This document shows positions 851 through 45,589 of a stretch of DNA of 46,153 nt, one piece after another. How positions within the stretch are numbered: position 1 is the stretch's first letter; each line of letters begins with the position of its first letter. The DNA is taken from positions 1-46,153 of IMG/VR virus record IMGVR_UViG_3300008261_000203; one strand, written 5' to 3'. Both the position numbers and the translations under genes were made by a program. The notes under the pieces are model-generated. The model saw only the letters and a program-made list of their open reading frames with translations, did no database searches and was not told where the DNA came from. The stretch is from a virus.

Positions 851-1227
851 TGGGTACCAGAAGTTTAACTTATGTTTATGATGAAGATAATAATAAACGA
901 CCTTTTGTTTGCATGTATCGACAATTTGATGGTTATCCATCAGGTCATGGTGCAGAGTTAGCGAAGTTTTTAATACCGAAAAAAACAAGCGAAGCTGGTA
1001 GAGAAGCTAATGGTATGGGTTGTTTAGCTGCTCAAATGGTGTCACATTTTAAAACGGCATCATACAATATTTACCTATACCCACCAGAATTAGGGCAAGA
1101 CTGTTGGCAAGAATATGAGTACCACCTTTTTTCAGATAAAGTGGTAGTACAGAATCCAACCGAAGTGATTTTTTCTGGTAGTTGGAAAGAATTCAGCGAA
1201 TTTTGTTGTGATGAATTGGTATCATAA
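850..1227 (+). CDS. conserved hypothetical protein, MGTRSLT family (125 aa)
   Basis: The N-terminus MGTRSLTYVYDED followed by MYRQFDGYPSGHGAELAKFL belongs to a recurring family of bacterial and phage proteins beginning MGTRS(L/V)T and carrying a YRQ-DGYP-GHG motif. No biochemical function is established to my knowledge. The conserved GYPSGHG loop at about residues 28-34 and the C-terminal GSWKEFSEFC segment are the most distinctive parts. It is the last gene before a new promoter (1256-1284), so it probably ends the first transcription unit of the window. Confidence 0.7.
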   Translation: MGTRSLTYVYDEDNNKRPFVCMYRQFDGYPSGHGAELAKFLIPKKTSEAGREANGMGCLAAQMVSHFKTASYNIYLYPPELGQDCWQEYEYHLFSDKVVVQNPTEVIFSGSWKEFSEFCCDELVS

Positions 1228-1255
1228 CAATTGAGGCAAACATTGGTGATGCCTC

Positions 1256-1284
1256 TTGACAAAATCACCTATTTGTATTATAAT
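1256..1284 (+). promoter_or_regulatory. consensus sigma-70 promoter
   Basis: TTGACA at 1256-1261 and TATAAT at 1279-1284 are separated by exactly 17 bases: a perfect match to the bacterial housekeeping promoter. It lies in the gap between two genes, about 35 bases upstream of the ATG at 1319. An early, host-polymerase-driven promoter is the natural reading. Transcripts would also run into the structured RNA at 1751-1881. Confidence 0.85.
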
Positions 1285-1318
1285 GGTCTCTCCAAAATTG
1301 ATAAAAGGAAAATATATT

Positions 1319-1738
1319 ATGACTAAGCAAGTAAAATTAAAACCGTTTGAGAAATTACTTACCGTGATGATTTCTGGTAAGCCTGTTACAGTAGAAGAAA
1401 TTGATGCCACGCTAGGCAAAGAGATTTACATGTACCGCTTATCCACTTATATCTGGCATGTGAAAACATTCGCTGGCGGTGTTGTGAAAGCCATCAAAGA
1501 TGGTCGCAAAGTAACAGCGTACCAAATCGTGAATGTCAAAGATGTTAAGGCATACATGGATCGTTCTGGTGTTACCAAGGCAAATTTTGTACCTGGTAAA
1601 GTACAGAAAAAACCTTCAATTGCTAAGTTGGCAGATTTGAAGGCGAAACCTGCAAAGGTTCAAAAGGTTAAATCCGCACCGGCACCAGTTGCTAAAGATG
1701 TAGCGGAAGAACTTGAGATTACCGAAGTTACAGCGTAA
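1319..1738 (+). CDS. hypothetical protein with Lys/Ala/Pro-rich tail (139 aa)
   Basis: The start is taken at the ATG at 1319, behind AAAAGGA, because an upstream in-frame start would lie inside the promoter. Residues 1-75 form a compact basic domain (KPFEKLLTVMISGKPVTVEE, then YMYRLSTYIWHVKTFAGG) that looks like a small winged-helix or DNA-binding fold, but I cannot name a family. Residues 90-139 are a low-complexity Lys/Ala/Pro/Val tail ending in an acidic stretch. A strong promoter directly upstream suggests high early expression. A nucleic-acid-binding role is inference from composition only. Confidence 0.7.
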   Translation: MTKQVKLKPFEKLLTVMISGKPVTVEEIDATLGKEIYMYRLSTYIWHVKTFAGGVVKAIKDGRKVTAYQIVNVKDVKAYMDRSGVTKANFVPGKVQKKPSIAKLADLKAKPAKVQKVKSAPAPVAKDVAEELEITEVTA

Positions 1739-1750
1739 TCTAAACTGGTA

Positions 1751-1881
1751 AATGGGGGAGTAGCGAGATTCTATGGCGAGCTTGTCAGTCTGGTATAACC
1801 AGCATTTAAAGTGCTCATAGATGCAGAGTCCGCTAATTCTTAAACAACAGCGACTATCGGGAGATAGCCATCGTGCCCCTT
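1751..1881 (+). ncRNA. structured untranslated RNA element, family unknown
   Basis: A 170-base gap between genes holds nested perfect complements: AA/GGGG (1751-1757) with CCCCTT (1876-1881); TAGCG (1761-1765) with CGCTA (1831-1835); TCTATG (1770-1775) with CATAGA (1816-1821). Inside are a CTGG/CCAG hairpin (1790-1802) and, near the 3' end, CTATC-GGGA-GATAG (1854-1867), a five-pair hairpin with a GNRA tetraloop. No open frame of note covers it. It would be the 3' UTR of the gene at 1319 and the leader of the gene at 1910, so a riboswitch-like leader or a processed small RNA are both possible. The 5' GGGGAGTAGC recalls the manganese (yybP-ykoY) riboswitch, but its 3' signature is absent. Confidence 0.55.
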
Positions 1882-1909
1882 ATTTTATAACTTTAATGTG
1901 GAGTATTGT

Positions 1910-2089
1910 ATGATTGATATGTTAAATGTAAGTGAAAAAGCTGCAAAATTTATTATGTCTAAACCTAATTCTTTTTTTGTTCTACCTAAAAAGTCTGAGG
2001 TGCCATTTGAAACTTGTGCTAAGTTTGGTGTCCGTTTATTCGTTACGCCAATGAAAGATCAACCTTTCAAAGTTGTAAAGCGTATTTAA
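1910..2089 (+). CDS. small hypothetical protein (59 aa)
   Basis: Start chosen at the ATG at 1910, which has TGGAG six bases upstream; an in-frame GTG at 1898 lacks such a site. The product is a 59-residue, mostly basic protein (SEKAAKFIMSKPNSFFVLPKK). It directly follows the structured RNA, so if that RNA is a cis-regulator this gene and those behind it are the likely targets. No domain recognised. Confidence 0.55.
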   Translation: MIDMLNVSEKAAKFIMSKPNSFFVLPKKSEVPFETCAKFGVRLFVTPMKDQPFKVVKRI

Positions 2090-2092
2090 AAA

Positions 2093-2314
2093 ATGAAGTG
2101 GGCACTTGTAATTTGGTTAGCAAGTTCTGGCTCCGACAATTTTTCGGTATATGAGAGATTTGTAACGCTTGAAGAATGTTTAGATAAAAAACAAACAGTA
2201 ACAAAAGCATTAAATCAGACAAATTCAAATATGCGTGTAGTATGCCGACCAATTGAAAAGGGTGGACAAAAAGAAAATAAAACAGTTATTGTACAACGTT
2301 ATATACTGTATTAA
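2093..2314 (+). CDS. small hypothetical protein (73 aa)
   Basis: A 73-residue protein beginning MKWALVIWLASSGSDNFSVYERF, followed by an alpha-helical region with two cysteines (EECLDKKQTV; VVCRPIE). The hydrophobic N-terminus could be a poor signal peptide, or simply a core strand of a small domain. It sits three bases after the previous stop and one base before the exported-protein gene at 2316, so the set is probably co-translated. Function unknown. Confidence 0.55.
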   Translation: MKWALVIWLASSGSDNFSVYERFVTLEECLDKKQTVTKALNQTNSNMRVVCRPIEKGGQKENKTVIVQRYILY

Positions 2315-3183: not shown

Positions 3184-3852
3184 ATGAAAAAGATTTTTAT
3201 TGTAGCACCAATTGTTTTAGCACTAACGGCTTGTGGTAGTATTAAATATGGTGTTGAAGTTGAAAGTAAATCTATTTTTAGTGGTGGTGGTGGCACACCA
3301 AGTCTAGGCGATGAAGTGAAGTATCCCTCTTGGTATACTCAAACACCTAAAGATGCTAAAGATGGTGCTCTGTATGCAGTTGCTACCGAATATTCAAAAG
3401 ATATGCAATTTGCGGTCGACAAAACAATGTTATCAGCTAAGCGTGAATTAGCTTCTAGGTTTTCATCACATGTAAGTTCTATGTTTAAAGAATTTACCGC
3501 AGAAGTTGGTGAAGCTGATGGAGAAGTTGTTCGTGAAATTGAAAGAGTAACCAAAAAAGTTATTAAAGATGTTAATCTAGTCGGTGTAGAACGAACTCAA
3601 TTCAAGGTGCAACATGACAAAAATGGTGGTTATCGTGCATGGGTGCAATTGCGATATTCCGTTGATGAATCTAATAAAATGTTGATGGCTGAAATTAAAC
3701 GCAATCGTCAATTAAATGCAAAACTACAAGCAGCACAAGCATTTAAAGAATTACAAAAAGAGTTTAAAGATAAACAACCAGAACCTAAAGAAGTTTCTCA
3801 GGTAACTCCTGTTGCACCAAACAATGGTGTTGATATGAGGCCTGTAGAATAA
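3184..3852 (+). CDS. LPP20-family lipoprotein (222 aa)
   Basis: Signal peptide II sequence MKKIFIVAPIVLALTAC with lipobox LTAC (Cys 17). Residues 45-60 contain the family-typical YPSWYTQTPKDAKDG, followed by an AVATEYSKDMQFAVDKTMLS helix and a strand (VERTQFKVQHDKNGGYRAWV), the layout of LPP20/FlgT-like outer-membrane lipoproteins. Residues 170-205 are a charged coiled coil and the tail is Pro/Val-rich. It is the third exported gene in a row. In bacteria LPP20-type lipoproteins occur beside CsgG-like secretion pores. In a phage it could alter the host envelope or take part in lysis; that is inference. Confidence 0.75.
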   Translation: MKKIFIVAPIVLALTACGSIKYGVEVESKSIFSGGGGTPSLGDEVKYPSWYTQTPKDAKDGALYAVATEYSKDMQFAVDKTMLSAKRELASRFSSHVSSMFKEFTAEVGEADGEVVREIERVTKKVIKDVNLVGVERTQFKVQHDKNGGYRAWVQLRYSVDESNKMLMAEIKRNRQLNAKLQAAQAFKELQKEFKDKQPEPKEVSQVTPVAPNNGVDMRPVE

Positions 3853-4043: not shown

Positions 4044-4579
4044 TGAATGTATTTTATCTTGATAATGATCCTGTAAAATGTGCTGAAATGCATGTTGACC
4101 GCCATGTTTGCAAAATGGTAATTGAATATGCTCAGTTAATGTCAACAGCACATCGAGTGCTTGATGGCCAAGAATATAAAAGATTGTCGGCCAATAATCG
4201 GTCAATCAAAGCTTGGCGGTTGCCTGATGATCGTGAAGCACGCCTCATGAAACCTACAATGATGAATCATCCTTCCGCAATATGGCTTCGTCAAAGTGAT
4301 GAAAATTATCGGTGGCTTTATAATATGTGGTGTGAATTATTAAATGAATTTACTTATCGTTATGGAAAAATTCATGCAACGGCACGATTGATACCTGATC
4401 TAGCGGTCTTACCCACTAACATACCTAAAGGTAAGTTTACAGGTCCCACACCTGCCATGCCTGATGATTGTAAAGTATTGGGTGATTCTTTAGCTTCTTA
4501 TCATAAGTACTATATAAACAATAAAACACATTTAGCGACTTGGAAAAATAGAAGTAAACCAAACTGGTACATAACATGA
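4043..4579 (+). CDS. conserved T4-like phage protein, LDND/HRVLDG family (178 aa)
   Basis: The start is the ATG at 4043, preceded by TGGGAG at good spacing; TTG/GTG codons just upstream are less likely. The protein opens MNVFYLDNDPVKCAEMHVDR followed by HVCKMVIEYAQLMSTAHRVLDG, then NHPSAIWLRQSDENYRWLY and NEFTYRYGKIHATARL. This series of His, Asp and Glu residues is strongly conserved in a family common in marine T4-like phages. The conserved polar residues suggest an enzyme, but I know of no demonstrated activity. It overlaps the heme oxygenase start (ATGA). Confidence 0.7.
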   Translation: MNVFYLDNDPVKCAEMHVDRHVCKMVIEYAQLMSTAHRVLDGQEYKRLSANNRSIKAWRLPDDREARLMKPTMMNHPSAIWLRQSDENYRWLYNMWCELLNEFTYRYGKIHATARLIPDLAVLPTNIPKGKFTGPTPAMPDDCKVLGDSLASYHKYYINNKTHLATWKNRSKPNWYIT

Positions 4580-5121
4580 GTATATTAAGAGAAATAACAG
4601 CAGAAAAACATCGTAAGGTTGAAGATGCTCCTTTTGTACAGTACCTATTAAAAGGTAATATTACAAAGGAGCATTATGTTGTTTATCTGTATGAGATGAT
4701 GTACATTTATGATCGATTGGAATCTTTAGCGAGCAAAGCTGGACTTTTAGAAGGTCTTGATGGACTCGAAAGAACAAAACGAATTGCTGAGGATTTAAAA
4801 GAACTTGATCCAAATTATGAGTCTATTTTAACAGATAGTACATTTTCATATCTAGCATATTTGGATAAACTCTATAAATCGGATCGTAAAAGTGATTTAT
4901 TTGCTCACATTTATGTACGCCATCTAGGTGACATGTATGGTGGTAAATTGATTTCCCGTGTAGTACCTGGTTCTGGCAAATGGTATCAGTTTGATAATAG
5001 ACCAGAACTTGTAAAAGCTTTTAATAACAAATTGTCATTGGATCATGCGGATGAAGCTCTGGTTGCTTTTGGCCATTTTGAGAATATTTTTAATGATCTG
5101 TGGTTAAAAATACATAAATAA
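4576..5121 (+). CDS. heme oxygenase (biliverdin-producing)
   Basis: An HO-1-type heme oxygenase of 181 aa, shorter than the bacterial and plastid enzymes (about 200-240 aa) but complete over the core. The proximal heme ligand is His12 in TAEKHRKVEDAPFVQYLLKG, and the glycine-rich distal helix is VRHLGDMYGGKL (118-124) with the Asp119 that organises the active-site water network. The enzyme oxidises heme to biliverdin, CO and Fe2+. Cyanophages carry homologues feeding phycobilin synthesis; no bilin reductase is visible here, so iron release or heme scavenging in a heterotroph is the simpler idea. It is tightly coupled to its upstream neighbour (ATGA overlap). Confidence 0.88.
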   Translation: MSILREITAEKHRKVEDAPFVQYLLKGNITKEHYVVYLYEMMYIYDRLESLASKAGLLEGLDGLERTKRIAEDLKELDPNYESILTDSTFSYLAYLDKLYKSDRKSDLFAHIYVRHLGDMYGGKLISRVVPGSGKWYQFDNRPELVKAFNNKLSLDHADEALVAFGHFENIFNDLWLKIHK

Positions 5122-5671: not shown

Positions 5672-6340
5672 ATGAATTTTAATCATGTTAAATTGAGTGA
5701 ACTAAATTTTGATTTAGAATCCGAAACCACAACTGAGGGTAGAGTTTATAAAACACCGGGAGGAAAGCTCTACCCTTCTATCACCACGGTTTTATCAGCA
5801 TACAACAAAAAAGCCATTTACGAGTGGCGTCAAAGAGTTGGTGAAGAAGTCGCCAACAAAATATCTTCCAAAGCATCTGGTCGTGGCACACGCTTACATA
5901 ATGCGGTAGAAAAGTATTTGCTCAATGAGATGAGCGATATGAAAATGCAATCTATGATGCCTGATGCTAAAGAATTGTTTATTACCATTCGGCCACACCT
6001 AGATAAACATGTCAATAATATATACGGCATTGAACAACCATTATATTCTGACCAATTAAAAGTGGCAGGTCGTTGTGATTGTATTGGTGAATGGGGCGGT
6101 GAATTATCCATTATTGACTGGAAGACCGCAACAAAGTTAAAAGAAAAACGACATATTCAAAACTATTTTATGCAGGCAACAGCCTATGCGGTAATGTTTG
6201 AAGAAAGAACAGGCAAACCAATTAATCAAATTGTAATTGCCATTGCCAATGATGATTTGATACCTCAGATTTTCATAGAGGACAAAAGACACTACCTGGC
6301 AGAATTGCATAAATATCTTGACAAGTATCACAATAAGTGA
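5672..6340 (+). CDS. PD-(D/E)XK exonuclease, MGME1/Cas4-like
   Basis: A 222-aa nuclease of the RecB/MGME1 branch. Visible motifs are GRGTRLHNAVE with His76, Glu121 in GIEQPLY, Asp136 in GRCDCIGEW, the core Asp149-x-Lys151 in IIDWKTA, and a QATAYA motif (Gln168). Together these form the two-metal active site that degrades DNA ends, typically single-stranded. Marine T4-like phages often carry this gene as an exonuclease for replication, recombination or host-DNA turnover. The start at 5672 follows the previous stop closely. The last codons overlap the -35 box and the palindrome of the downstream tmRNA promoter. Confidence 0.85.
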   Translation: MNFNHVKLSELNFDLESETTTEGRVYKTPGGKLYPSITTVLSAYNKKAIYEWRQRVGEEVANKISSKASGRGTRLHNAVEKYLLNEMSDMKMQSMMPDAKELFITIRPHLDKHVNNIYGIEQPLYSDQLKVAGRCDCIGEWGGELSIIDWKTATKLKEKRHIQNYFMQATAYAVMFEERTGKPINQIVIAIANDDLIPQIFIEDKRHYLAELHKYLDKYHNK

Positions 6341-6346
6341 TACAAT
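6318..6346 (+). promoter_or_regulatory. promoter of the permuted tmRNA, with palindrome in spacer
   Basis: TTGACA (6318-6323), a 17-base spacer and TACAAT (6341-6346) place a start site near 6353, just before the acceptor piece of the tmRNA. The -35 box lies inside the 3' end of the nuclease gene. A perfect seven-base inverted repeat GTATCAC-AATAA-GTGATAC (6325-6343) fills the spacer and covers part of the -10 box: a possible operator, or a coincidence of the coding end. There is no U-run, so it is not a terminator. Confidence 0.75.
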
Positions 6347-6412
6347 AAGTAATTCGTAGAAGTTGTTTGAAAGTTGTTGTGGACGGCGGTGCAAATCCGC
6401 CCACCTCCACCA

Positions 6413-6480
6413 AAAGTATATTGACGAACCGAGTTATCGGTAGCAAACACACACTATAGTTGTGGCAATATACTTCTGAT
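6413..6480 (+). other. intervening segment of the tmRNA precursor
   Basis: This 68-base segment joins the 3' CCA end to the 5' end of the coding piece and should be cut out. AAGTATATTG (6414-6423) is a perfect ten-base complement of CAATATACTT (6466-6475), so the precursor would form a hairpin stacked on the acceptor stem. A smaller CCGA-GTTA-TCGG hairpin (6429-6440) lies within. This fits substrates for RNase P and 3'-end processing, as for permuted bacterial tmRNA precursors. Confidence 0.8.
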
Positions 6481-6561
6481 GGGGGTGTTTTAGATTCGAC
6501 ATGGCAATCATTAGAACAATGGAGAGTCGCCAGAGTAGGCGTAATAACTAAAAAATTAAAC

Positions 6562-6594
6562 GCAAACGATAATAAGTTCGCATTAGCAGCCTAA
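6562..6594 (+). other. tmRNA tag reading frame ANDNKFALAA
   Basis: Codons GCA AAC GAT AAT AAG TTC GCA TTA GCA GCC then TAA (6592-6594) encode ANDNKFALAA. This closely parallels the classical ANDENYALAA tag and ends in the LAA recognised by ClpXP. Resume codon GCA at 6562 lies behind an A-rich run, as usual. Confidence 0.92.
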
Positions 6595-6660
6595 AAACTG
6601 CTTAGGGTTTCGCCAGTTCCTCGTAACAGAATACTGGCACTTTTATAAAAGGAAATTATT

Positions 6661-37844: not shown

Positions 37845-38576
37845 ATGATTGGTATTGTTGGTTATGGTATGGTGGGAAAAGCCGTTGATTATGGCTTTCC
37901 CAATGTATCTAAAATTATTTGTGATCCCGAATATAATGATATATCATTAGAAGAAATTTGTTCTTCAAATCCGGAGGCAATATTCATTTGCGTTCCAACT
38001 CCGACAGATAATACAAATTACAAAATTTTAAAAGATGTATTGAATCAGATTGTCAAATTCAATTACAAAGGATTGACAATAGTAAAATCGACAATATTGC
38101 CGCATGAATTAGAAGGTTATGATATAATTTATAATCCTGAATTTCTATCAAGAAAAACTTCAAATGAAGATTTTGTTAATCCTCCAATGTTGATTATTGG
38201 TGGTGATAAAGCAAAAGAAGTTTTAGATATTTACCAAAAATATTCTATTGTTAAAACTGATAATGTCTTTTTAACTAATGTGCAAACGGCTAGTCTTGCA
38301 AAATATACAATGAATTCGTTTTATGCTTTAAAAGTTACCTTTATGAATTCAATATATGATATATCAAAAGAGATGAATGTTGATTATAATGAGTTGACTG
38401 CAATGCTTTCAAAACATCGATGGATGGGATCACATCACTTTGAAGTACCTGGTCCTGATGGCCAACGAGGATTTGGCGGACCATGTTTACCAAAAGACAC
38501 ACAAGCTTTAAGTAAAAAATTTGACATGAAACTTTTAAATACTGTATTAGAACTTAATGAACAATATAGACAATGA
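37845..38576 (+). CDS. shortened UDP-glucose/GDP-mannose 6-dehydrogenase-like protein (243 aa)
   Basis: N-terminal Rossmann GYGMVGKAVD (Gly6-Gly11), VPTPTD, IYNPEFLSRKTSNEDFVNPP with Glu99, QTASLAKYTMNSFYALKVTF with Lys153 and Asn157, and GFGGPCLPKDTQAL with the catalytic Cys214. These are all residues for NAD-dependent oxidation of a sugar-nucleotide C6 alcohol. Full-length enzymes have about 390-450 aa; the C-terminal UDP-binding domain is missing, since the protein ends just after the central helix. It may be a self-sufficient phage form, or use a partner. It overlaps the radical SAM gene by four bases, so it is co-expressed with the modification module. Confidence 0.82.
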   Translation: MIGIVGYGMVGKAVDYGFPNVSKIICDPEYNDISLEEICSSNPEAIFICVPTPTDNTNYKILKDVLNQIVKFNYKGLTIVKSTILPHELEGYDIIYNPEFLSRKTSNEDFVNPPMLIIGGDKAKEVLDIYQKYSIVKTDNVFLTNVQTASLAKYTMNSFYALKVTFMNSIYDISKEMNVDYNELTAMLSKHRWMGSHHFEVPGPDGQRGFGGPCLPKDTQALSKKFDMKLLNTVLELNEQYRQ

Positions 38577-39577
38577 AATTAGTTACCGTATTTCTATCTG
38601 AAAAGTGTAATCTCAATTGTTCATATTGCAATCAAGACAAGTTGTCTAAAGATGTTATAGATCCACAACTATTTTTAAATGAGTATCGTAGGGTTAGAAA
38701 GTCTTTTCCTGATGAGTTGATACAAATTGATTTCTTTGGTGGTGAGCCACTACTTTTTATGGATTTAATAAAAACCATTATTAGTGAAACTGAGAATGAT
38801 GGCAATATTCAATATGGAATGCCAACAAATGGTTTACTACTTACTGAAGAAATATTGGAATACTTGATTGAGAAGAAAGTAAATGTATCATTGAGTTTTG
38901 ATGGACTGTGGCATGATAAAAACAGACTTCAATTAAATGGTAAAGGTACTGTACCTAGATTTTTTGAGAAACGAGAATTGTTTCAAAGAATACCAAATTT
39001 TAAGATACACACTATGATCTACAAAGGGTGCTATAACCTTTTGGAAAACCACCTATATATTAGGAAACACTTTGGTGTTAATCCCGAACTTACTTTGGTT
39101 CGTGACATGCATGTTTGGGATTCAAAGAGTGTGGAGAGATTAAAAGTTGGTATAACAGAATTGTTCAATTGGTATATTGATAATCCCGAAGAAGAAATGC
39201 CGTACTTCATATTGTTTTATTTACGACATTTTATTAATTATGAATCTAACGGATTTGTTAAAGATTTTTGTGGTGCAGGAACAGATATTTTTATGTTTAG
39301 TGAAAACAAACCTGTACCTTGCAATCGATTCAAGGATAATCCAGAGATGGTAGAATTGATTCCGGAATATCAGCGCATGTCTGAATGTCAAACATGTGAG
39401 GTAAAAAATTATTGTGAAAAAGGTTGTTTATTTGAACAGATAAAAAATAAAGGACCAATAAAAGAATTGTGTGATGTATATAAATTTATGTACAAAAATG
39501 TTGGTGATATGACAAAACAATTAAGAAATAATGAAAATTTTAAAAATACTGTTATGAAAGAATTGATAGATGGCTAA
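38573..39577 (+). CDS. radical SAM/SPASM peptide-maturase-like enzyme 1 (334 aa)
   Basis: The [4Fe-4S]-SAM motif is Cys12-x3-Cys16-x2-Cys19 (CNLNCSYC), with GGEP at 56-59 (DFFGGEPLLF). The C-terminus carries a complete seven-cysteine SPASM pattern: Cys233, Cys250, then CX2CX5CX3C at Cys272/275/281/285, and Cys300, binding two auxiliary clusters. This architecture is that of sulfatase-maturing enzymes and RiPP maturases that modify peptides (thioethers, Calpha oxidation, C-C links). It lies two genes upstream of a Cys-repeat fibre-tip protein. Substrate inferred, not shown. Overlaps its neighbours by four and eight bases. Confidence 0.88.
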   Translation: MKLVTVFLSEKCNLNCSYCNQDKLSKDVIDPQLFLNEYRRVRKSFPDELIQIDFFGGEPLLFMDLIKTIISETENDGNIQYGMPTNGLLLTEEILEYLIEKKVNVSLSFDGLWHDKNRLQLNGKGTVPRFFEKRELFQRIPNFKIHTMIYKGCYNLLENHLYIRKHFGVNPELTLVRDMHVWDSKSVERLKVGITELFNWYIDNPEEEMPYFILFYLRHFINYESNGFVKDFCGAGTDIFMFSENKPVPCNRFKDNPEMVELIPEYQRMSECQTCEVKNYCEKGCLFEQIKNKGPIKELCDVYKFMYKNVGDMTKQLRNNENFKNTVMKELIDG

Positions 39578-39809
39578 TTCGATAAAAAAAATGAATAAAG
39601 CACTTTATGGTGCAGCGTTTCATTTAAATGAAGCTGGAAAATACTTAACTAATGTTGAGGACTTTAGACCTGAAGCTGTTAAACTATTTCGTATGGCAGA
39701 AGAAATGGTGGGTATTGTTAAGCCAGAAGTAAGTAAGGTTACAGAAGAAAAGATGTTTTCAATACTCGATGAAATAATGGAGTTTTCTAAGGAAGAAAAA
39801 ACTAAATGA
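39570..39809 (+). CDS. small helical protein between two SPASM enzymes (79 aa)
   Basis: A 79-residue helical, cysteine-free protein: MANSIKKMNKALYGAAFHLN, EAGKYLTNVEDFRPEAVKLF, RMAEEMVGIVKPEV, ending in an acidic-then-basic tail. It overlaps both radical SAM genes (8 and 4 bases), so expression is tightly coupled. Without cysteines it is unlikely to be the thioether substrate; an accessory or scaffold role, like small recognition proteins in peptide-modification clusters, is possible, though it does not look like the winged-helix RRE. Unknown family. Confidence 0.65.
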   Translation: MANSIKKMNKALYGAAFHLNEAGKYLTNVEDFRPEAVKLFRMAEEMVGIVKPEVSKVTEEKMFSILDEIMEFSKEEKTK

Positions 39810-40957
39810 ACAAAAAACATAATCAGTTCACATTAGAAATTACAACTACTGCACTTTGTAATATGGGTTGCACATATTGTTTTGAAGGTGCAAAGACCAA
39901 TACACAAAGACTAGATGATAAAGTTGATGTTGTTAAGAAACGAATTTACGAACTTTTGGATAGTAATTTTTTAAAAGACAACTATGAAATGTTAAATTTA
40001 ACTTTTTGGGGTGGTGAACCCACTTTAAACGGAAATTTGATTGTAGATATAATGACCGAATTTCAACATTTGGATAAAGTTAATTTTCACATTTATACAA
40101 ATGGTTACAATAGAAAAAGACTAGATGATATTCTTGATAAAGTGGATATTCGTAAATTAACGGTACAAATATCACATGATGGTAAAGAAATTGGAGATAA
40201 ATTTAGAGTCACTCATTCAGGTAAACCAACTTCAGATCAAGTTGTCGAGAATATAGAATACTTTGCTAGAAAAGGTATTAATGTATTCCTTAAATCTACA
40301 ATACCTTTAAAGAGTATGAAAGGTCTTTATAATACTTGGTTGGATTTTAAAGATTTGCATCTTAAACTTAATTCTATTGGACCAAACATTAATGTTTCAT
40401 ATGCACCCACAATTGATTATGTCGAAGAAATACCTAAAGAAAACTTAGAAGGATTGATTCAAAATTTTAGATCCGAAATGATAAAAATTGCAGCTGAAGA
40501 AATCAAATTTTTTGAAGAACATGGGTACCATTTATGTTCATGGTTTAACGGTTCAGATTCGAAATCTCATTGTACATCTGGTGCTCATATGCATGCCATT
40601 GATGTTGATGGTAATAGTTATGCATGTCATGGTTCAATATACTCACCTAATAAGGATTTGATGAAAGGTGGTAATATTATGGATGACGGTTTTATAAATA
40701 GTGTAGAATCTATGAGTAAGAAATATCAGACTCCTATTAAAGAAGTGTCTGATATATGTAAAGGATGCGTGGCCACAACCTGTATGATTTGTCCAGTTAG
40801 TAGCTTGGACAACAGTAAAAAAGTAGATTATTTTGACCGATGGACGGATAGATGGGTTAATAATATGTGTGGTTTCTTTAAAGCATTTGGTGAAATTGAT
40901 AGATCAGTTCAATCATATTTAAATAAAGAGATAAAATTAGTGGAAAAGGAAGTCTAA
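39806..40957 (+). CDS. radical SAM/SPASM peptide-maturase-like enzyme 2 (383 aa)
   Basis: Motif Cys18-x3-Cys22-x2-Cys25 (CNMGCTYC) and GGEP at 69-72 (FWGGEPTLNG). The C-terminal SPASM-type cysteines are Cys256, Cys274 (DGNSYACHG), then Cys318/321/326/329 (CKGCVATTCMIC, spacing CX2CX4CX2C, slightly compressed) and Cys355. The layout is that of anSME/peptide-maturase enzymes, distinct from enzyme 1, so the pair may do successive reactions or act on different targets. It ends one base before the Cys-repeat fibre-tip gene, the closest candidate substrate. Confidence 0.88.
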   Translation: MNKKHNQFTLEITTTALCNMGCTYCFEGAKTNTQRLDDKVDVVKKRIYELLDSNFLKDNYEMLNLTFWGGEPTLNGNLIVDIMTEFQHLDKVNFHIYTNGYNRKRLDDILDKVDIRKLTVQISHDGKEIGDKFRVTHSGKPTSDQVVENIEYFARKGINVFLKSTIPLKSMKGLYNTWLDFKDLHLKLNSIGPNINVSYAPTIDYVEEIPKENLEGLIQNFRSEMIKIAAEEIKFFEEHGYHLCSWFNGSDSKSHCTSGAHMHAIDVDGNSYACHGSIYSPNKDLMKGGNIMDDGFINSVESMSKKYQTPIKEVSDICKGCVATTCMICPVSSLDNSKKVDYFDRWTDRWVNNMCGFFKAFGEIDRSVQSYLNKEIKLVEKEV

Positions 40958-40958
40958 A

Positions 40959-41669
40959 ATGTGTACTGGAAATCGAGCCCCATGTCCTACAAATAACCCA
41001 GTCACATTATCTGGCAATTTTGCAATACCAGGAGCTTTAATTACTGCTAATGACATTAATACTTTAAAAAATGCTATTCGAGCCGAATTAGCAACATATG
41101 CTAAACATAGAAGTTTTGCGGCCGCTGGAGATATGGCTTCTGCATATACCGCTTCTGATAGGAGTGGTGCCGATCATGGTGCAGGTGTTACAGTAATTGA
41201 TAATAATCATGTTAATGACTATGAAACAATTGTACAAAGAGTAAATAATGTTGTTGAACCCGTTGGATCAAATTATGCCGTTCTTACAGAGCAACCTGAT
41301 AATACCACATCACCTAATAGTTATGCTGATGGAGAATTGGTTGAAGATACGCATTGGTCAGTACTTTTAGCAAAATACAATACTATGCGACAAGATTGTA
41401 TTTGCAACTCTGATTGTGCATGTAATTTAGTTTGTGATTGCAATGGTAATTGCGGTTGTAATTATAGTGATGAAAGATTAAAAGAAAATATTAAATATCT
41501 TTATACTAAAAAAGGTATTAATCTATATTCATTCAATTACATTTGGGACAAAAGTATCACCAAAGTGGGTGTCATGGCGCAAGATTTGTTAAACACAATT
41601 TATTCAAACGCTGTTTTAACCGATGAAAACGGATATTATAAAGTAGATTATAAAAAATTACCTATTTAA
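40959..41669 (+). CDS. fibre-tip protein with Cys hexapeptide array and Peptidase S74 domain
   Basis: 236 aa. Residues 1-135 form a virion-like domain (GNFAIPGALITANDINTLKN; MASAYTASDRSGADHGAG). Residues 147-170 are four tandem hexapeptides CICNSD, CACNLV, CDCNGN, CGCNYS with eight cysteines in strict CxC pairs every six residues. Directly after comes SDERLKENIKYLYTKKGINL, the start of an S74 intramolecular chaperone with the Ser170/Lys175 dyad, then YSFNYIWDKSITKVGVMAQD. S74 domains assemble trimeric fibres and cleave themselves off at that Ser. The mature protein would thus end in the Cys array. Encoded one base after a SPASM enzyme. Confidence 0.85.
   Translation: MCTGNRAPCPTNNPVTLSGNFAIPGALITANDINTLKNAIRAELATYAKHRSFAAAGDMASAYTASDRSGADHGAGVTVIDNNHVNDYETIVQRVNNVVEPVGSNYAVLTEQPDNTTSPNSYADGELVEDTHWSVLLAKYNTMRQDCICNSDCACNLVCDCNGNCGCNYSDERLKENIKYLYTKKGINLYSFNYIWDKSITKVGVMAQDLLNTIYSNAVLTDENGYYKVDYKKLPI
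41397..41465 (+). repeat. four tandem CxCNxx hexapeptide codon repeats
   Basis: Residues 147-169 of the fibre-tip protein repeat with an 18-base period: pairs Cys147/149, 153/155, 159/161 and 165/167, each followed by Asn at the fourth position. Codons vary between units (TGT/TGC/GCA changes), so the protein pattern rather than the DNA is conserved. Confidence 0.9.
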
Positions 41670-41685
41670 TGAAAGAAGGTTTGAA

Positions 41686-42303
41686 ATGAGTTCTATGATT
41701 TATGAATTAGCTATGGTTGTTGATTGTGGCACCTATTGGAGGGTAACCAATGTAACAAAAAATACCTTTGACAATTTAGTAAACAATGATGAAAAGTTAT
41801 TAAAATTGTCCCATGTTTCTTATAAAAAAATTGAAGAAGCTTTGTTGGCCAATAAAACGGTGCATATTAATAAAAATATGATGGCCAATGAAGTACTTCC
41901 TTTTGAAGTTAATGTGAAAGATACTTCATTAGAAGATCCTCTTCAAGAATCAAAAAATCATAATTTAGCAAAAGTAAGAATGATTGTTAGTCCAGATTTA
42001 TGTAAAATTGCTGGATTAACTTTGTACGGATTTATGGTTTTAAACAATGACCTAATTAATGCCGGTTATGCAATTACAAATGAAAACCGAGAAGAAAAGT
42101 ATTTACAAATACTAGAAACTGGCGATGAAAAATTAATTTCAAAACTGGAAGACTATTTAAATTATAAAGATGAAATAGAAAAAGTTGCTTATTTAGAAAG
42201 AAAGTTTTCCAAATTTAAAAATGATGTATTATCATCATCAACAGTAGAAGATGTTATTGAACTTACAAATAAATTTTTAGAAAATTTTTATTTAGATTAT
42301 TGA
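41686..42303 (+). CDS. hypothetical protein following the fibre-tip gene (205 aa)
   Basis: No recognised domain. The N-terminal half is alpha/beta (YELAMVVDCGTYWRVTNVTK; NTFDNLVNNDEKLLKLSHVS), the middle has VRMIVSPDLCKIAGLTLYGF, and residues 150-205 form charged helices. RBS AAAGAAGG precedes the ATG. Its position right after the S74 fibre-tip protein suggests a virion or fibre-related role, such as a minor structural part or assembly helper; alternatively it belongs to the modification module. Function unknown. Confidence 0.6.
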   Translation: MSSMIYELAMVVDCGTYWRVTNVTKNTFDNLVNNDEKLLKLSHVSYKKIEEALLANKTVHINKNMMANEVLPFEVNVKDTSLEDPLQESKNHNLAKVRMIVSPDLCKIAGLTLYGFMVLNNDLINAGYAITNENREEKYLQILETGDEKLISKLEDYLNYKDEIEKVAYLERKFSKFKNDVLSSSTVEDVIELTNKFLENFYLDY

Positions 42304-42304
42304 A

Positions 42305-43102
42305 ATGAAATATGGAGTTGTATATAAACACAAACCTAATAATAAAATAAATGGAACATTTTTTTATTGTTTTGAATATTTTCAATTTTTAAAAAAGTTT
42401 GTTGATGTAAAATTTTATATTGTAGACATTTCTGAAAAAGATATTAACTTAATATCTAAAATTTTTACTGAAAAGTATACTTCTAATTTTAACGATGTAG
42501 TTCCAATTAAAATAATAGATTTATACAAACTCAAATTAGATCAAACTCTAATCCTTGATGTGATGACTTTTTACGATTGTAAAGAGTTTTTAACAAATCA
42601 AATTCATTGTTATAGTAATAATGACCATAGTATGTTTCGTTATAAAAATAATAGAACCGTAACATACTATGGATCTTATTCTCAATATCAAAAATTTGAT
42701 ATATTTTCTCATATTAAATTTAATTTTGACATATTTCGCAAACTAACCAAAAACGGCCATGGCGTTTTTATTAGTGCTTTAAATCAAGAATATATTCGTT
42801 GTAATATTAATAGATGGCAACAGGAATTTGGCCGTCCAATTATTATTAAAAAAAGTCACAGCGGCCACGGCAATATGTTTGAACATATTGATGGTGTTCA
42901 TTATGTTCATACACAAAGAGATACCAATAATAGAATTATACCTGAAGCTTTTTTCTACGGCAAAACAGTTACCATAGAAGATTTGCATCCAGAAATCGAT
43001 TCTATAAAATTAAGATATGAAGATATTTTAGCCAACGGTTTAAAAAATTATACCCTTACAGAAGATGATGTTATTATACAAGCCATGATAAGGAATAATT
43101 AA
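42305..43102 (+). CDS. glycosyltransferase-like / sugar-modification protein 1 (265 aa)
   Basis: 265 aa starting MKYGVVYKHKPNNKINGTFF and YCFEYFQFLKKFVDVKFYIV, an opening like the N-terminal Rossmann half of GT-B enzymes. Later parts include VTYYGSYSQYQKFDIFSHIK, RPIIIKKSHSGHGNMFEHID and EAFFYGKTVTIEDL. The last motif (a basic segment followed by FYGK and an acidic helix) resembles the donor-site half of GT-B enzymes. It shares its end base with the next, similar-sized protein, so the two could be halves of one GT-B unit or a pair acting together. Assignment is tentative. Confidence 0.5.
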   Translation: MKYGVVYKHKPNNKINGTFFYCFEYFQFLKKFVDVKFYIVDISEKDINLISKIFTEKYTSNFNDVVPIKIIDLYKLKLDQTLILDVMTFYDCKEFLTNQIHCYSNNDHSMFRYKNNRTVTYYGSYSQYQKFDIFSHIKFNFDIFRKLTKNGHGVFISALNQEYIRCNINRWQQEFGRPIIIKKSHSGHGNMFEHIDGVHYVHTQRDTNNRIIPEAFFYGKTVTIEDLHPEIDSIKLRYEDILANGLKNYTLTEDDVIIQAMIRNN

Positions 43103-43989
43103 TGGATAAAATACTCAGACTTGATCCTAATTATGATCTTTGGTTAAGTTACACTTGGAGTAGTAACAATCACGGAATATGTGGTCACACTTATGAGATT
43201 ATAGATTACTATTATATTTTAAAAAATCATTTTAAAGTAGGCATATTATTAGCTGAAGATATTGATTGGGATAAGTTTGAAAAAAGTATTCGCTGGAAAT
43301 ATAATTTTACAGATGAAGAAATTCAAAACATAAAAGATAATATTGTATTTGGTAATCGTCCTAGTATAGTAACTGGAAAAAACATTTTATTTACAGATGG
43401 TGGAATAATTAACAATGATAGTAAAACACTTTTGTTTAAAAATGTTTTGTACTTTGCCTGTGGTAATAGAGAAATAAAAAATAATAATAAATCAAATGTT
43501 TGGGTACTTCAAGATAATAGGGTTTATGAACCAGTCAAATGTAATGGTATAAACTATAAGAAAAAAATACTGTTCAATAGATTAAAATCCATTGGCAAAA
43601 GTAATAATCAGTCGTTATTATATGCTACTAAAAATTGTAGGCATATTAAAGACTTTCAACAATATAAAAAATATGGCAAATTATTAGCCATTGTAAATGT
43701 TATTCCTAAGCCTATTGAAGGTATTAATTTTGTTATTCCCCCAATTGAAAATTTATTTGAGCAATTTGACACCTACATTTATACTCCCGTAGATAGAAAA
43801 TGGGATTGTAGTCCTAGATTTATTGCTGAGTGTAAACACTATGGTAAAAAAGTAATATATCATGATATAGACTATTGGGAAGAAGATCATGGATTGCGTG
43901 TACGTAAATGGGATATTGATAATGACTTCGATAGTTTACATTTAAAAGATAACGATAACATTATAGAAATACTTAAAGGTATCATATAA
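43102..43989 (+). CDS. glycosyltransferase-like protein 2 (295 aa)
   Basis: Begins LDPNYDLWLSYTWSSNNHGI, CGHTYEIIDYYYILKNHFKV, a nucleotide-sugar-enzyme-like N-terminus. The C-terminal YIYTPVDRKWDCSPRFIAEC, KHYGKKVIYHDIDYWEEDHG and LRVRKWDIDNDFDSL have the look of a GT-B donor-binding half (DCSPRFIAEC resembles the S-x-R-x-x-E element). It is joined to both neighbours by one-base overlaps and lies between the fibre-tip gene and three further radical SAM genes. Together with the sugar-nucleotide dehydrogenase it suggests glycan decoration of the virion or host. Tentative. Confidence 0.55.
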   Translation: MDKILRLDPNYDLWLSYTWSSNNHGICGHTYEIIDYYYILKNHFKVGILLAEDIDWDKFEKSIRWKYNFTDEEIQNIKDNIVFGNRPSIVTGKNILFTDGGIINNDSKTLLFKNVLYFACGNREIKNNNKSNVWVLQDNRVYEPVKCNGINYKKKILFNRLKSIGKSNNQSLLYATKNCRHIKDFQQYKKYGKLLAIVNVIPKPIEGINFVIPPIENLFEQFDTYIYTPVDRKWDCSPRFIAECKHYGKKVIYHDIDYWEEDHGLRVRKWDIDNDFDSLHLKDNDNIIEILKGII

Positions 43990-45014
43990 TGAAGTTATAT
44001 AATGAATTAAGTCATCAATTAGAAATTGATTATGATGAACCTTTGTGTCAACGAGCCAAGTTAGATACAGGTACACATTGTAATTATCGTTGTGAATTTT
44101 GCTATTATAAGACACAACTAAACGATGTAACCGAATTTAATGTAATTAAAAAACGAATTGATTACCTTGTAGATTGCGGTATCAAAGAAGTAGACCTTTC
44201 TGGAGGAGAATCCAGTATTCATAAACAATGGTTTGATATACTAGACTATTGTAAAAGTAAAGGTTTAAAGATAAGTACTTTAAGTAATGGTTATAAGTTT
44301 GCAGATAAACTGTTTTTGGCCAAATCTAAAGAACATGGATTAGACGAGATACTTTTTAGTGTTCATGGATATGATAAAGAAAGTCACAATACATTAGTTG
44401 GTCATCGAAAAGGATTTGAAAATATAATCCAAGCCATACATAATGCTCACAAATTGGGTATATTAGTTCGCATTAATTGTACTGTCACACATAAAAATTA
44501 TAAGAATTTACCAACAAAATTTATTGCTTTAATGCAAGAGTTAAAGCCTTTTGAAGTTAACTTTCTTACATTAAATTATTGGGATGATGCCGGAGTTCAA
44601 GAAACAATTGACTATTCAATAATTACTCCTTATGTACATCAAGCAATTGATTTACTTAAAGACTCGGTTAAAATTATTAATGTACGATATACTCCTTATT
44701 GTTTTATGAAAGGTTATGAACAATATGTGTGTAATTATTATCAACACATTTATGACATATATGATTGGAATATTGCGGTATATAATAGAGATATTGACCC
44801 AGCGGTATATCGTGCAGATCCTTTAAAAGCAATGTATGCAGCTGCAGAATTCAAACGCAACAGAACATACTATAAAACTGCTGATTGTTTAAAATGTAAA
44901 CATTATTATATCTGTGATGGTGTAGAAAAACAAATCAAAGATGTAAAATTGCGGCCTGAACAAGGCGAACAAATCAAACAAGTCAACTTTTATAGAAAAG
45001 GTTGGTATCGATGA
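43989..45014 (+). CDS. radical SAM enzyme 3 with short C-terminal Cys motif (341 aa)
   Basis: Cys31-x3-Cys35-x2-Cys38 (HCNYRCEFCY) and SGGE at 71-74 (VDLSGGESSIH). LSNGYKFADKLFLAKSKEHG and VRINCTVTHKNYKNLPTKF follow the standard radical SAM barrel. The C-terminal CLKCKHYYIC (Cys300/303/309) is a truncated SPASM/twitch-like cluster motif. The N-terminal ELSHQLEIDYDEPLCQRAKL extension resembles other radical SAM proteins of sugar or peptide modification. The product is unknown. Its stop overlaps the next start (ATGA). Confidence 0.82.
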   Translation: MKLYNELSHQLEIDYDEPLCQRAKLDTGTHCNYRCEFCYYKTQLNDVTEFNVIKKRIDYLVDCGIKEVDLSGGESSIHKQWFDILDYCKSKGLKISTLSNGYKFADKLFLAKSKEHGLDEILFSVHGYDKESHNTLVGHRKGFENIIQAIHNAHKLGILVRINCTVTHKNYKNLPTKFIALMQELKPFEVNFLTLNYWDDAGVQETIDYSIITPYVHQAIDLLKDSVKIINVRYTPYCFMKGYEQYVCNYYQHIYDIYDWNIAVYNRDIDPAVYRADPLKAMYAAAEFKRNRTYYKTADCLKCKHYYICDGVEKQIKDVKLRPEQGEQIKQVNFYRKGWYR

Positions 45015-45589
45015 TTAAAGACATTGAATTACCTCTAACTAATAAATGTAATTGGCATTGTAATTATTGCGTGGTGGATATTCACAACCGACCAGAACTT
45101 CCGTTTGAAGAAGTATTAAGTAGAGTAAAAGATATTGAACCTGGTAGTGAAGTTACTTTTAGTGGTGGAGAACCAGGAATATTAAAGCGTGAAGAATTGG
45201 AATTGTTAATTAAAATATTAAAAGATAAAAACTGTGTAATTGATTTGTTAACCAACGGATTGTTTTTTAAACGACACATGCCGTTAGTACATGAGTTTGG
45301 AAAAATACATTATCATTGTGTAGAATATCTACCAGATGATATTGAATTTCCTAATTTGGAATTCGATCATGTATTTTACGGATTGGTGGTAACCAATACT
45401 AACTTTTTAGATGGTAGCATTCACACAATGATTGACAAGTATCCGCATATTAAGTTTTTATTGTTACCTGATGTTCGTAGTCAAAAAAAAATTAATTTAA
45501 ATTTAATGATGGATTTTTTTAATGAACATGGTGATAAAGTGCATCCGTATAGTTTAAATGAATTTATCACCGTGGTATCAAGGTGGTAA
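45011..45589 (+). CDS. minimal radical SAM protein 4 (192 aa)
   Basis: The start is the ATG at 45011 that overlaps the previous stop; an in-frame TTG at 45002 is less likely. Cys13-x3-Cys17-x2-Cys20 (CNWHCNYC), followed by VVDIHNRPELPFEEVLSRVK and SGGEPGILKREELELLIKIL. At 192 aa it covers only part of a radical SAM barrel and has no auxiliary-cluster cysteines. It is a close paralogue of the next gene (shared CNW-C-YC, D-HNRP, SGGE, TNGLF-KR). Such short radical SAM proteins may act with a partner. Function unknown. Confidence 0.8.
   Translation: MIKDIELPLTNKCNWHCNYCVVDIHNRPELPFEEVLSRVKDIEPGSEVTFSGGEPGILKREELELLIKILKDKNCVIDLLTNGLFFKRHMPLVHEFGKIHYHCVEYLPDDIEFPNLEFDHVFYGLVVTNTNFLDGSIHTMIDKYPHIKFLLLPDVRSQKKINLNLMMDFFNEHGDKVHPYSLNEFITVVSRW

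Follow-up and report, generated by a model that had tools for sequence, protein, structure and literature searches.

The window analysed here, the whole 46,153-base stretch of viral DNA in IMG/VR record IMGVR_UViG_3300008261_000203, carries phage tail and baseplate genes. A sigma-70 promoter (TTGACA-17-TATAAT, 1256-1284, plus strand) agrees with the consensus at 12 of 12 positions, as the first-pass annotation had noted, and would drive both gene X and the RNA described below. Gene X (1319-1738, plus strand) encodes a small basic protein of 139 amino acids with a tail rich in K, A and P; the product looks winged-helix-like when read by eye, and it matched none of the PHROG and Pfam families searched. 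An untranslated gap of 171 bases separates gene X from the next gene on the same strand (1910-2089; 59 amino acids if the ATG at 1910 is the start), whose family was not matched and whose place is taken by a different gene in other phages. The RNA, which we term RNA-alpha, lies in this gap at 1754-1879 (plus strand) and has a conserved three-way-junction core with an extended P2 helix. Downstream of RNA-alpha and on the same strand is a permuted tmRNA of the betaproteobacterial type (6295-6645), whose tag was read by ARAGORN as VITKKLNANDNKFALAA; in related phages the tmRNA is located 1.6-4.4 kb downstream of RNA-alpha.

Other genes of the window were recorded in passing. A group of exported-protein genes downstream of RNA-alpha includes a gene at 3184-3849 for an LPP20-like lipoprotein; the LPP20 match and that of a lipid attachment site each score slightly below the Pfam cut-off. 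A heme oxygenase gene is found at 4576-5118 (PF01126, E 3.8e-16), and 38573-45589 holds a cluster of radical-SAM-like proteins, whose CxxxCxxC-type motifs were recognised by eye when the translations were read.

Among the IMG/VR loci returned, 80 hold relatives of gene X, and in many of these the bases 3' of the gene X stop codon are conserved. The covariance model R1 (80 positions, 13 sequences), built with the window left out, matched the window at 1750-1882 with 73.9 bits and an E-value of 1.8e-17, which, like all R1 E-values, is rough because the calibration was short. We accepted as members of RNA-alpha those R1 matches with E below 1e-5; at E up to 1 the model matches 48 gene X loci, the weakest of which are marginal. 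Scans with DNA patterns added further contigs, and those from the first four scans were confirmed by model searches. By our own count, after removal of loci on the same contig, RNA-alpha is carried by about 130 uncultured viral contigs, all of them metagenomic and many of them fragments.

Some carrier phages share the baseplate protein of the window (36-66% identity, in records of up to 214 kb), whereas this protein is absent from a 239-kb record and gives short, weak matches only in a 266-kb record. Therefore, RNA-alpha spans quite different phages. Large contigs (163-266 kb) have one clear copy each; two copies in tandem are present in L286 and L288, and L214 has one copy together with a weak second one. 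Two exact-match patterns, which divergent copies may escape, found no RNA-alpha in 84,980 prokaryote genomes. Isolated phages gave none by blastn with natural sequences and none by tblastn with gene X or with the alternative upstream protein; composite consensus queries also found none there, a result of little weight since their loop letters are partly arbitrary.

Rfam release 15, searched with whole loci at the gathering score, contains no family for RNA-alpha. A search with RNA-alpha itself up to E = 10, which covered the riboswitch models named in the first-pass annotation, gave no relevant match, and we found no published description of the family in the open-access literature. By these searches, RNA-alpha is a family of small phage RNAs that had not been catalogued before.

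The core of RNA-alpha is a three-way junction of the helices P1, P2 and P3, in which P3 is directly continuous with P1. P1 has the consensus GGGG/CCCC and is formed in the window by 1754-1757 and 1876-1879, where a GGGG/CCCC helix had already been proposed; G-C/A-U covariation is seen at P1 pairs 1 and 4, and pair 4 is either G-C or A-U across the family. P2 follows the consensus GAGU-n-GCG/CGC-nn-AYUC and consists of P2a (GAGU/AYUC; 1758-1761 with 1836-1839), whose third pair varies among G-C, G-U, C-G, A-U and U-G, and P2b (GCG/CGC; 1763-1765 with 1831-1833). A second helix proposed earlier (1761-1765/1831-1835) is present in the window, but only its part G1763-G1765/C1831-C1833 is conserved, and the family consensus pairs U1761 with A1836 instead. 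A third (1770-1775/1816-1821) is likewise present in the window, but it is not conserved, being broken in L001 and L072; it is supplanted by the covarying helix P2c (1767-1772 with 1825-1830), which has both-side changes at 4 of 6 pairs in the 15 members with a long P2. The rest of P2 (1773-1824) is a variable extension that is missing from short members and includes, at 1790-1802, the CTGG/CCAG hairpin seen in the first reading.

The junction linker J2/3 (1840-1844) reads UUAAA in the window and UYAAA in the family, and it is near-invariant in 38 distinct cores. P3a has the consensus YR(A)C/GYG; in the window CA(A)C at 1845-1848, with A1847 bulged, pairs with GUG at 1873-1875, and the second pair is A-U, G-C or G-U across the family. 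The hairpin P3b (CUAUC-GGGA-GAUAG, 1854-1867), also reported at the outset as a capped hairpin, has a GGGA loop and both-side changes at 4 of 4 counted pairs, and it is missing from short members. In the window P1, P2a and P3a all pair, the UYAAA linker stands between P2 and P3, and 11 of 11 core pairs are standard. The shortest members (L209, L218 and L244) are about 50 nt long and consist of the core only. Because G-U pairs mark it, the plus strand is the RNA. A free hairpin, GUCGGGAGAC, which resembles the P3b hairpin of other members, was observed just upstream of RNA-alpha in L119 (in two copies), L136, L120, L289 and L290.

Covariation was counted on the 38 distinct cores, each assembled from gap-free blocks that sequence anchors delimit; alignments fitted to R1 were not used for this count, as they are biased towards the structure of R1. 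In these cores, which come in part from related phages and are not independent, 99.3% of core cells are paired, compared with 35-68% in slid controls, and both-side changes occur in 36 cells, compared with a shuffled mean of 7.4. Such changes affect 6 of the 11 core pairs and are spread over all three core helices. The covariation score was 0.347, whereas shuffles gave 0.180 (sd 0.013) and slid versions at most 0.158. Moreover, a motif search without a pairing requirement returned 80 distinct sequences, and the full set of 11 pairs is formed in 77 of them, although the motif itself constrains some letters. The A-U state of P1 pair 4 first appeared in loci that were found without a P1 constraint, namely L059 (through gene X) and L102, L164, L179 and L188 (through a 15-base pattern). 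Therefore, a later DNA pattern that fixes A-U at this pair is not the origin of that state.

Folding energy was rejected as evidence for RNA-alpha, since its z-scores, -1.32 for 1751-1881 and -1.65 for 1754-1879, are not significant. For most of the members tried, energy folding recovers the arrangement of P1 and P2, and for L005, L206, L227, L236 and L244 it recovers the entire junction. Folding energy by itself would have missed RNA-alpha. Judged from sequence comparison, 1754-1879 is a real structured RNA, and it is the comparison and not the folding energy that establishes this. The description given by the first-pass annotation, an unassigned and strongly structured RNA, is thus upheld by covariation in homologues, the absence of which had been named as grounds for abandoning it.

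In its genomic settings RNA-alpha is arranged like a gene. In the first setting, a stop codon immediately precedes it, either that of gene X or that of another gene for a small protein; many of these proteins are rich in K, A and P, and in most gene X loci a strong promoter is found about 430-620 nt upstream; in the phages with gene X, RNA-alpha is within an operon and has no terminator of its own. In the second, it lies inside tRNA arrays with tRNA-like spacing (7-14 nt). The recorded tRNAs adjoining it are on the same strand and differ in species: tRNA-Lys 7 nt before and tRNA-Tyr 14 nt after RNA-alpha (L358, L366), tRNA-Glu 7 nt before and tRNA-Tyr 14 nt after (L361, L367), and tRNA-Trp 13 nt before and tRNA-Glu 14 nt after (L356), with L218, L244, L239, L183 and L226 among the further cases. 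In the third, RNA-alpha has its own promoter 13-26 nt upstream with no intervening reading frame (L227, L232, L212 and L243), where the background rate of such promoters is 0.002 per 20-nt window. At least eight different, unrelated genes, or tRNAs, are found downstream of RNA-alpha in various phages. As a separate observation, the leader TTTGTTCTTTAAAAA, which in L243, L225 and L212 follows the promoter and precedes RNA-alpha and the tRNA array, is similar to an rRNA boxA antitermination site.

Since the core is kept but its neighbours are not, and since RNA-alpha is usually single-copy and is associated with strong promoters and tRNA arrays, a stable product acting in trans is the simplest reading. 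We therefore consider it more likely than not that RNA-alpha is a gene for a stable trans-acting noncoding RNA, and we do not regard it as controlling the gene that follows; among the riboswitch, attenuator and stable small RNA offered as options in the first reading, it is the last that fits best. The host sigma-70 polymerase would make RNA-alpha in quantity: transcription would start at a promoter belonging to the RNA itself or at the strong promoter of a short gene ahead of it, or would run through a tRNA array of which RNA-alpha is one unit. Host nucleases that process tRNA and mRNA probably excise it from the longer transcript, a putative step that the stable RNA requires in the phages with gene X. 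The mature RNA would be a compact three-way junction, continuous through P1 and P2 on the 5' side and through P3 and P1 on the 3' side, with the near-invariant UUAAA linker and one bulged nucleotide at its centre and with P2 and P3 free in length.

The combination of variable arms and a strict junction suggests protein binding, and RNA-alpha would most likely bind a conserved host protein as a decoy or modulator. From its position among tRNAs, we would guess that the partner belongs to the translation, tRNA-handling or tRNA-targeting defence machinery. We put forward more tentatively the specific proposal that RNA-alpha, carried beside the phage tRNAs, would inhibit a conserved host factor involved in handling or attacking tRNAs, or act as a decoy for it, and may serve as an RNA-only tool for counter-defence or takeover; its target could be guessed to be an enzyme of processing, a component of the ribosome or a defence nuclease that cleaves tRNAs.

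The main rival to a stable trans-acting RNA, and the closest to it in evidence, is cis-acting processive antitermination, which we regard as rather unlikely. HK022 put is a phage RNA of about 70 nt with two stem-loops that binds the beta' zinc-binding domain of RNA polymerase and acts on the polymerase in cis (PMC9378689), and in the same manner nascent RNA-alpha would bind the polymerase and cause read-through of terminators, either those within the long early operon or those among the untranslated genes for tRNAs and tmRNA that lie further on. A cis-acting transcription element would fit the placement of RNA-alpha near promoters: 66% of copies are within 600 nt of a promoter matching at 11 or more of 12 positions, compared with 21.5% of positions drawn at random from these loci, a difference inflated by related loci. 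The put RNAs likewise occur either immediately 3' of an early promoter or a few hundred nt further on, putR lying about 270 nt from PR (PMC9378689); the order of promoter, small basic protein gene and RNA is like that of putR, and the copies with their own promoter are like putL. Additionally, tRNAs or a tmRNA are often downstream, and phages that have gene X without RNA-alpha (L026, L067, L071, L077 and L078) seem, by eye, to have an intrinsic terminator of the classical type in the corresponding position. However, put consists of two stem-loops, whereas RNA-alpha is on paper a three-way junction that also occurs at array ends and between tRNAs. Antiterminating RNAs of the put kind are upstream of the genes they affect, and although other loci are compatible with this, RNA-alpha in L253 closes a tRNA array, and the gene beyond it, which encodes a 2OG-Fe oxygenase (phrog_81, E 1.4e-32), is convergent with it. 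The bases directly 3' of RNA-alpha in L282 form an intrinsic terminator, and the single clear copy per genome of 163-266 kb, with downstream content that varies among phages, also speaks against such a role.

It is improbable that RNA-alpha is a cis-acting processing or stability element, in which the junction would mark cleavage points between genes or tRNAs or shield 3' ends from exonucleases. Tight spacing to tRNAs and stop codons and a 3' flank that is commonly UUA would suit this function, but only one copy is present among the 10-29 tRNAs of an array, and copies that stand alone behind a promoter of their own leave nothing for such an element to separate.

A riboswitch or attenuator controlling the gene at 1910 is very improbable, even though RNA-alpha in the window is 30 nt upstream of the start codon. 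This idea fails because there is no relevant Rfam match up to E = 10, because the downstream gene changes among phages, and because many copies lie between or before tRNA genes, where no protein gene is available for them to regulate. The likeness of the 5' side to the yybP-ykoY manganese riboswitch, pointed out by the first-pass annotation, is a string match only (GGGGAGUAGC): window positions 1200-2100, searched on both strands with E-values of up to 10 allowed, did not match RF00080, all other Rfam riboswitches failed at the same E-value, the junction of RNA-alpha differs, and no downstream gene is common to its copies. A self-cleaving ribozyme with a conserved junction core is scarcely credible either, for although compact size, a variable periphery and conserved unpaired junction nucleotides would agree with it, few unpaired nucleotides are invariant, no Rfam ribozyme matches, and no plausible cleavage site is flanked by a strictly conserved dinucleotide.

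Several other identities were considered and set aside. UACUCUUAAACAA could be read as a boxA (NusB/NusE) site, but its paired half changes together with its partner (ACUUUUAAAC, AGUUUUAAAC) and is not kept as sequence. A CsrA sponge acting through GGGA loops does not agree with the short members, which have no GGGA loops. No Rfam match supports a relation to Ro60/Y RNA, to phi29 pRNA or to the antitoxin RNAs of the ToxI type.

The T4 RNAs rnaC and rnaD (species 1 and 2 RNAs) are nearest in kind to RNA-alpha: annotated as small stable RNAs, they are encoded by a large myovirus next to its tRNA genes and on the strand of these genes, and they are not known to have a function. Homology was rejected: R1, run with filters off on the T4 tRNA region, matched neither RNA, and its sole sub-threshold match there (16.8 bits) is inside the segB gene and was taken as chance. 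GOLLD and ROOL are phage or prophage RNAs whose function is not known and which are often near tRNA islands (PMC12286853). They share this tRNA-island setting with RNA-alpha, but they are hundreds of nucleotides long and form RNA nanocages, whereas the RNA-alpha core is about 50 nt and has no Rfam match.

A second unlisted structured RNA, which we call RNA-beta (TGACCCGYA..GAAGT..GGGTGGTTC, roughly 200 nt), was observed in 65 viral stretches. It often shares a tRNA array with RNA-alpha or replaces RNA-alpha after gene X, and the copy in L057 had no Rfam match up to E = 10. RNA-beta is located at about 3430-3660 in L012, about 3405-3600 in L057, 12923-12965 (plus strand) in L286 and 2037-2080 (plus strand) in L243, and it is also present at L223, L231, L249 and L220.

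The purpose of the tRNA arrays of large phages is debated. RNA-alpha joins T4 rnaC/rnaD, GOLLD and ROOL among the RNAs that adjoin such arrays. It recurs in about 130 contigs over quite different phage genomes, combines a strict core with a free periphery, and is small enough for synthesis, probing and crystallisation. Therefore, the small, strict-cored and recurrent RNA-alpha makes the role of noncoding RNAs in phage tRNA islands directly testable.
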